This document shows positions 1 to 473 of a stretch of DNA of 43,274 bases, one piece after another; position 1 is the stretch's first letter, and every line of letters begins with the position of its first letter. The stretch lies in assembly GCA_030832185.1 (NCBI GenBank), contig JAURJQ010000004.1:1-43274 (forward strand). The letters run 5' to 3'. The translations under genes were made by a program, and so were the position numbers. Source of the DNA: Chitinophagales bacterium (GTDB lineage Bacteria; Bacteroidota; Bacteroidia; Chitinophagales; JADJOU01). Under the pieces are notes generated by a model. It saw only the letters and a program-made list of their open reading frames with translations, made no database searches and had not been told where the DNA came from.

Positions 1-75
1 AACCGATGACCTCTTGCATGCCATGCAAGCGCTCTACCAATACTGACGATAAATGTCAGCACTCTACCCCTCAAT
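1..75 (-). repeat. tRNA-Ala(GGC)-like unit 1, cut by the window edge
   Basis: Read on the minus strand, this has a D-arm-like TTGGTAGAGCGC, then a perfect anticodon arm CTTGC-ATGGCAT-GCAAG with anticodon GGC (alanine), then AGGTCATCGGTT, the usual entry to a T arm, where the window ends. In front of TTGGTAGAG stands the palindrome CTGACATTTATCGTCAG where a D-arm 5' strand would be. It is the same as unit 2. No normal 5' acceptor strand is seen, so it is unlikely to be a working tRNA. Confidence 0.75.
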
Positions 76-167
76 GATTGGCAAAGATAATAAATAATAA
101 TAAAACCTATTATCCTGTGTTGAGTGATTAGAATGAAGAACGTTGATATAGTTTGAGTAATTTACTG

Positions 168-268
168 TGGAGGATAATCCCGCATGTGCGGGAAACCGAT
201 GACCTCTTGCATGCCATGCAAGCGCTCTACCAATACTGACGATAAATGTCAGCACTCTACCCCTCAAT
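168..268 (-). repeat. tRNA-Ala(GGC)-like unit 2 with palindromes in the D and T regions
   Basis: On the minus strand: GGGGTAGAGTGC, the palindrome CTGACATTTATCGTCAG, TTGGTAGAGCGC, a perfect 5-bp/7-nt anticodon arm with GGC, AGGTCATCGGTT, the palindrome TCCCGCACATGCGGGA in place of the T loop, then ATTATCCTCCACAG, which resembles a tRNA 3' acceptor strand. The anticodon arm is intact while both the D and T regions hold palindromes. No matching 5' acceptor strand was found. Its position in the tandem array suggests that the element was duplicated as a whole. Confidence 0.75.
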
Positions 269-357
269 GATTGGCAAAGATAATAAATAATAATAAAACC
301 TATTATCCTGTATTGAGTGATTAGAATAAAGAACATTGATATCGTTTGAGTAAATTG

Positions 358-473
358 CTGTGGAGAATAATCCATTTAAAGTCGAACACCTGTCTACCGA
401 CAGGCAGGAATGACCTCTTGCGTGCCATGTAAGCACTCTACCAATCCCGATAGCTATCGAGACTAATCACTCC
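358..473 (-). repeat. tRNA-Ala(GGC)-like unit 3, diverged, with different palindromes
   Basis: On the minus strand: GGAGTGATTAG (degenerate 5' acceptor and D-arm start), the palindromic TCTCGATAGCTATCGGGA, TTGGTAGAGTGC, an anticodon arm with one mismatch (CTTAC/GCAAG) and loop ATGGCAC keeping GGC, AGGTCAT, the hairpin CCTGTCGGTAGACAGG, a good T-loop motif GTTCGACT, and ATTATTCTCCACAG as 3' acceptor. The order of tRNA parts is right, but extra hairpins sit in the D and T regions and the acceptor ends pair only partly. It overlaps the stop codon of the phosphatase gene that ends at 467. Confidence 0.75.

Follow-up and report, generated by a model that had tools for sequence, protein, structure and literature searches.

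The window analysed here is the whole stretch of 43,274 nucleotides and makes up the entire contig C27 of G000, a Chitinophagales genome assembly of 2.2 Mb in 31 contigs. The closest named relatives of this genome were MAGs called Sphingobacteriales and Saprospirales (one protein, 90-91% amino acid identity), and several of the key genomes in the comparisons were also MAGs. Three tRNA-Ala(GGC)-derived units carrying palindromes were found on the minus strand at the start of the window (Table 1), in agreement with the initial annotation. Unit 3 directly followed the stop of a PP2C-like gene (467-1543), and units 2 and 1 repeated with a period of 193 bp. The expected count of the TCCCG..CGGGA pattern in the window was 0.04 by dinucleotide shuffling. 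The initial annotation had placed palindromes in the D and T regions of every unit; this held for all D arms and for the T arms of units 2 and 3, while in unit 1 the T palindrome is not within the window. It had also assigned the palindromes to the same two sites across units, which was the case for the D site of units 1 and 2 but not for the T insertion point, which differed between units 3 and 2. The replacement site of TCTCGATAGCTATCGGGA in unit 3 was the same as in the G001 copy L096 and the Met copies L165, and its CCTGTCGGTAGACAGG-type T-arm insertion recurred in G001.

Table 1. Features of the tRNA-Ala(GGC)-derived array in the window
Feature	Position	Strand	Description
Unit 3	359-473	-	tRNA-Ala(GGC)-derived copy; the G002 ortholog holds an equivalent unit at the equivalent place
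Palindrome TCTCGATAGCTATCGGGA	445-462	-	D arm of unit 3; near type A; takes the place of CTCAG
Palindrome CCTGTCGGTAGACAGG	389-404	-	T-arm region of unit 3; type C
Spacer	266-358	-	Putative tRNA-Ala promoter/leader; Bacteroidota -7-like TATCTTTG at 275-282
Unit 2	166-264	-	tRNA-Ala(GGC)-derived; D and T arms replaced, anticodon arm intact
Palindrome CTGACATTTATCGTCAG	236-252	-	D arm of unit 2; loop shared with the Val-copy palindrome GCCGACGATAAATGTCGGC
Palindrome TCCCGCACATGCGGGA	178-193	-	T arm of unit 2; replaces tRNA positions 57-64
Second copy of spacer/putative promoter	72-165	-	TATCTTTG at 82-89
Unit 1	1-71	-	Truncated at the end of the contig; probably runs on towards G000:C6:1
Palindrome CTGACATTTATCGTCAG	43-59	-	D arm of unit 1

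The units matched the intact tRNA-Ala(GGC) gene of the same genome (G000:C6:213-285) over 40 bp at 100% identity and its palindrome-bearing neighbour (C6:80-145) over 66 bp at 98% identity. The proposed likeness to the genome's own tRNA was thus borne out, and of the origins first suggested for the units, that of decayed tRNA genes was supported, as they are degenerate copies of tRNA-Ala(GGC). The likeness did not extend to tRNA detection: no tRNA was called anywhere in the window by ARAGORN or by Rfam in gathering and E-value modes, and no cloverleaf was obtained for the units with ARAGORN or Infernal, because the arms have been replaced. A 103-aa ORF at 64-375 (-) overlapped the array and is probably a spurious translation of tRNA-derived DNA. 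Elsewhere in the window, an intergenic palindrome, ATTCCCGCGAAGGCGGGAAT, was present at 25624-25643 between the genes at 24109-25515 and 25729-26151; it is either a type A-like solo copy or a terminator.

Placement of the array was based on G002, a genome of the same genus with 91.5% identical DNA. Its contig C18 showed the PP2C-like gene, unit 3, the spacer, the intact tRNA-Ala(GGC) and the C6 gene in unbroken order, with the spacer matching window positions 266-358 directly upstream of the intact tRNA. Judging from this contiguity, the window array most probably lies immediately ahead of the intact tRNA-Ala(GGC) on the same strand, with the spacer as the putative promoter region of that gene; unit 1 would then run on into C6 with further copies and the intact gene. 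On C6, a tandem copy (65-145) immediately upstream of the intact gene was identical to it over tRNA positions 1-55, beyond which it had TCCCGCACGTGCGGGA instead of CGAATCCG. A synteny comparison of the window gene with the tRNA-Ala loci of G001 and G003 gave no match. An assembly artefact arising from contig ends was ruled out by the contiguous orthologous array in G002:C18 and by internal loci with similar anatomy. In the same assembly, G000:C10:1-139 and the end of G000:C26 shared one tRNA-Met with its leader, which suggests a tandem tRNA-Met repeat left unresolved by the assembly.

A genome-wide search for the palindrome pattern TCCCGN{2,12}CGGGA produced 21 occurrences in G000 compared to 2 for the reversed-pattern control. 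Eight of them fell in broken tRNA copies adjoining the intact parent, namely Ala(GGC) (two), Ala(TGC) (two), Ile, Asn (two) and His, and approximately 13 fell outside tRNA copies. The chance of 8 of 21 falling in tRNA copies was about 1e-16, with tRNA-copy sequence generously set at 5 kb. In the same genome, tRNA-Val had an upstream copy with other palindromes and tRNA-His had three downstream copies. The congener G003 carried six 81-bp half copies of tRNA-His, each with TCCCGCAGGTGCGGGA, ahead of the intact gene, while G020, from another family, had 131-bp copies downstream of an intact tRNA-Asn, with palindromes in both the anticodon arm and the T arm. Palindrome-bearing 5'-half tRNA copies were also observed in G000 upstream of Asn, Val, Ile and Ala(TGC) (L007 1420-1500, L022, L011 and L023). 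The Ile half-copy lies in the spacer that follows the end of the 16S rRNA; therefore, rRNA operons also carry such copies. In two species (G000:C24:143150 and G001:C90:15456), a type A palindrome was bounded by conserved flanks other than tRNA (TAGAATTAATCGGTTCGG).

A family of GIY-YIG nuclease elements has tRNA copies broken in this way as its hallmark, which goes beyond the initial reading of the window. Among order-mates, broken tRNA copies flanked a GIY-YIG gene of about 85 aa (family range approximately 80-100 aa). A small GIY-YIG ORF was found between the intact tRNA-Asn and a broken copy in G000, G002 and G003, and another within the Asn array of G020. Most of the 56 small GIY-YIG loci identified in 31 genomes had an intact copy of a tRNA on one side and a broken copy of that tRNA on the other; at such loci all parts were on one strand and tRNA terminators were often duplicated. 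The linked genes matched the Pfam GIY-YIG family (PF01541) with E values of 1.6e-14 to 4e-18, and Y8, Y19, G21, R29 and E66 (catalytic Y, Y-x-G, R and E) were invariant in 20 linked sequences, as in the GIY-YIG superfamily; the window array itself had no such gene. Relatives of the linked protein in the PDB were UPF0213, the structure-specific SLX1 and the intron-associated endonuclease 1mk0, which is compatible with a nuclease acting on hairpins or cruciforms. In the protein tree, the linked proteins formed one clade (support 99/91) of 36 rows, all of them tRNA-linked except L155, which had no detectable tRNA; a further member, L183, had only weakly tRNA-like direct repeats. On the other side of the tree, none of the 17 GIY-YIG proteins of the sister group was tRNA-linked (Fisher p 6e-13).

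A profile of the linked clade (A1) matched 151 of 247 genomes of the phylum Bacteroidota at E≤1e-14, many with tandem copies. tRNA sequence lay next to the gene at all 50 A1 loci sampled and an intact tRNA at 48 of them, in a sample that was not fully unbiased (30 top-scoring matches and 20 picked by eye among lower ones). Tandem arrays reached six GIY-YIG genes, examples being tRNA-Leu-(GIY-3' fragment)x6, tRNA-Met-(GIY-3' fragment)x5 and (5' fragment-GIY)x3-tRNA-Ser. A phage or plasmid origin was rejected on the weak phage matches (12 records, ≤42% identity) and the lack of any plasmid match. No GIY-YIG gene was found at the tRNA-Ala locus of G000, G001, G002 or G003, so the link of the window to the family lies in the shared anatomy and in the Ala loci of other families (L136, L208, L212, L221 and L239). 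As separate observations, the GIY-YIG genes of L169 (G007:C7) and L183 (G008:C137) had no clear tRNA and were surrounded by other repeated palindromes (ATGCCGAATTTATTTCGGCAT and ATCCCGAAACAAGTTCGGGAT; TTTAGCGCAGGGCGCTAAA), and perhaps represent other target types.

Filled and empty sites were identified among congeners. At tRNA-Val, G000 without a GIY-YIG gene was collinear on both sides with G001 and G003, in which the gene was present, and in G001 the native 3' end and terminator were found beyond the nuclease gene. tRNA-Phe gave a similar picture of collinearity, G003 being filled and G000 empty, with approximately 400 bp inserted and approximately 14 bp of the tRNA 3' end repeated. At filled sites, the native downstream flank followed the broken copy and 14-19 bp of the tRNA 3' end were duplicated. 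The Val and Phe sites read as an insertion polymorphism among congeners, by gain or loss. A nuclease gene at a specific target, that target present or reconstituted, and presence or absence at orthologous sites were all found here, as in free-standing homing elements. The intact tRNA-Val was identical in filled and empty genomes; homing therefore leaves the self-immunity of the intact gene unaccounted for.

The replaced tRNA intervals, mapped automatically in 51 cases, were exact and recurred across tRNAs, genomes and families. They comprised positions 13-19 in Ala-TGC and fMet, 13-18 in Ile, 26-35 in Asn (two families) and His, 36-40 in elongator Met, 57-64 in Ala, and the exact anticodon arm in Ala, Pro, Val and Gly (several families), while Arg copies (two families) showed a pure insertion between positions 22 and 23 with no replacement. 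Asp copies in at least six genomes carried TCCCGA..TCGGGA at one site with varied centres, and the arms were TCCGCC..GGCGGA in fMet copies and CCTGCC..GGCAGG in Arg copies. The Val upstream copy had GCCGACGATAAATGTCGGC in G000, and in G001 and G003 TCCCG..CGGGA sat in the GCCGACGATAAATGTCGGC loop, one hairpin evidently inserted into another. The recurrent intervals and this nesting of palindromes at an orthologous site support the repeated, site-preferring insertion first suggested for the window. Derivation of the palindromes from local tRNA sequence was also considered and rejected: centres were sometimes alike (TCCGC-CAGTTGG-CGGA, D loop) and no general rule emerged.

On the nuclease tree, which was built from few alignment columns, palindrome arm type required 5 changes compared to 20.1 when shuffled (0/200) and tRNA isotype 30 compared to 54.4 (0/200). 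Types A, B and C occurred together in G013; therefore, the arms belong to the element lineage and not to the genome. These results bear on an alternative in which the palindromes are independent mobile repeats that enter hairpin loops, the GIY-YIG elements only supplying redundant tRNA copies in which palindromes persist since such copies escape constraint. The nested hairpins of the Val copy would fit this alternative, as would the approximately 13 of 21 palindromes outside tRNA copies in G000 and large dispersed sets such as the identical TCCGCCAGAGGCGGA palindromes of G001, present about 17 times. However, the arms track the nuclease clade, the sites are fixed per tRNA across families, and B-type palindromes were commoner where the genome also had a B-type nuclease (Mann-Whitney p=0.0017, n=4 vs 27, which are small numbers), and independent repeats are considered unlikely. 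G001 had 20 palindromes of the B pattern overall and no fMet-linked GIY-YIG gene was sampled there; its dispersed TCCGCCAGAGGCGGA set is possibly an independent palindrome family.

The window is therefore best read as a nuclease-less remnant or non-autonomous array of a phylum-wide family of tRNA-targeting GIY-YIG elements, an interpretation that we regard as likely. An element consists of a GIY-YIG gene between an intact tRNA and at least one broken direct copy of that tRNA, in which the interruption is in most cases a short palindrome at a set place. The three window units would be tRNA-Ala(GGC) transcription units, each a promoter and a tRNA, that were copied in tandem long ago and broken by palindromes. 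The nuclease is proposed to cut one specific tRNA gene, and repair from an element-bearing copy would bring in the GIY-YIG gene together with a replacement tRNA end. The replacement end would restore an intact tRNA and push the native end beyond the nuclease gene; tandem arrays would arise as cutting and recombination recur. The palindrome sits on the presumed target of the displaced copy and hence may block re-cutting there. It is probably a sequence or cruciform recognised or deposited by the cognate nuclease, which would account for solo palindromes elsewhere. A more specific proposal, put forward tentatively, is that a one-tRNA-specific nuclease of approximately 85 aa deposits or mobilises its cognate palindrome at the cut site, in a phylum-wide class of minimal mobile elements. 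The palindrome would then serve both to mark displaced tRNA copies as immune and as a non-autonomous mobile unit that this nuclease spreads to other places. Points against the GIY-YIG element interpretation are the lack of a GIY-YIG gene at the Ala locus, the palindromes outside tRNA copies, the unaccounted self-immunity of the intact tRNA-Val, and the clade members L155 and L183.

The RNA-level parasite or tRNA mimic of the initial annotation was not needed to explain the array and is kept here as a weak rival, in which the nuclease would be a toxin of the RNase type, with the tandemly repeated tRNA-like RNAs and their palindromes as a type III-like decoy RNA antitoxin. The nuclease gene does adjoin tandem structured repeats in an isotype-specific manner and the units are predicted to fold stably as RNA (-38.5 and -39.5 kcal/mol), but many arrays carry just a 17-27 nt tRNA end and no mimic (L229 and L231), the GIY-YIG fold and its relatives work on DNA, and there was no real PADLOC match, so that such a system is very improbable. 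Another alternative does without a mobile element: ordinary tRNA pseudogenes would stem from slippage and tandem duplication, and template switching in hairpins would create the palindromes. It would match the tandem periods of 148, 131 and 81 bp and the copies without an anticodon loop (GCTTGCATGCAAGC). It would not match the recurrence of one palindrome family at the same positions in different tRNAs and families, its co-inheritance with the nuclease clade or the filled/empty polymorphism, and this explanation is already disfavoured as highly unlikely.

Comparison with known systems placed the GIY-YIG elements closest to homing endonucleases. SegB of phages T4 and T6 is a free-standing GIY-YIG homing endonuclease that cuts inside tRNA genes at the motif RAWTSGAAC, the reverse complement of which (GTTCSAWTY) resembles a tRNA T-loop, and drives tandem amplification of a tRNA segment (PMC13096335). 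The GIY-YIG gene beside tRNA genes, the tRNA gene as cutting site and the tandem tRNA amplification are similar; however, SegB is phage-borne and larger, with no broken tRNA copies, palindromes or one-isotype specificity reported, whereas the Bacteroidota element is chromosomal, about 85 aa and palindrome-linked. In fungal mitochondria, mobile endonuclease ORFs replace gene 3' ends, as in Glomus atp6, atp9, cox2 and nad3 and Allomyces atp6 (PMC3630166). The likeness is in the place of the ORF, which has on one side a functional gene whose end was supplied and on the other the native end that was displaced; the fungal ORFs differ in that they are mostly LAGLIDADG, target mitochondrial protein genes and have no palindrome reported at the displaced end. 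The Rickettsia palindromic elements and the mitochondrial double-hairpin elements are short palindromes that insert into genes, including RNA genes, and often into loops; we know of no linked nuclease or tRNA-copy architecture for them. Dispersed solo palindromes occur here as well, but the arms here track the nuclease clade. Islands with a tyrosine integrase enter a tRNA gene, restore the tRNA end and leave a displaced fragment. The elements described here differ in having periods of approximately 300-450 bp and only a small GIY-YIG gene; the array spacing leaves no room for a tyrosine integrase next to the tRNA end. No description of such an element was found in the open-access literature searched, and an earlier account in subscription papers is possible. 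The nuclease-coupled palindrome may be the part that is new in kind; free-standing GIY-YIG homing elements are already known.

If the GIY-YIG element interpretation is correct, many small genes annotated as GIY-YIG nuclease family in Bacteroidota would be selfish elements rather than stray repair genes, with one nuclease lineage per essential tRNA gene. It would account for the tandem remnants of tRNA genes in Bacteroidota and for some, if not all, of the short palindromes between genes there. The elements would also be the bacterial equivalent of the homing elements that replace gene ends in fungi, and would directly parallel SegB. Since palindrome arms are coupled to nuclease clades, what mobilises small palindromes in bacteria could be tested in vitro.

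Finally, the Asn-linked GIY-YIG ORFs L092, L100 and L094 were observed to read into the broken tRNA copy (…LAQLVRVPHVRD…), with C-termini that end in the palindrome or just past it. Such GIY-YIG read-through may explain database proteins with tRNA-derived tails.
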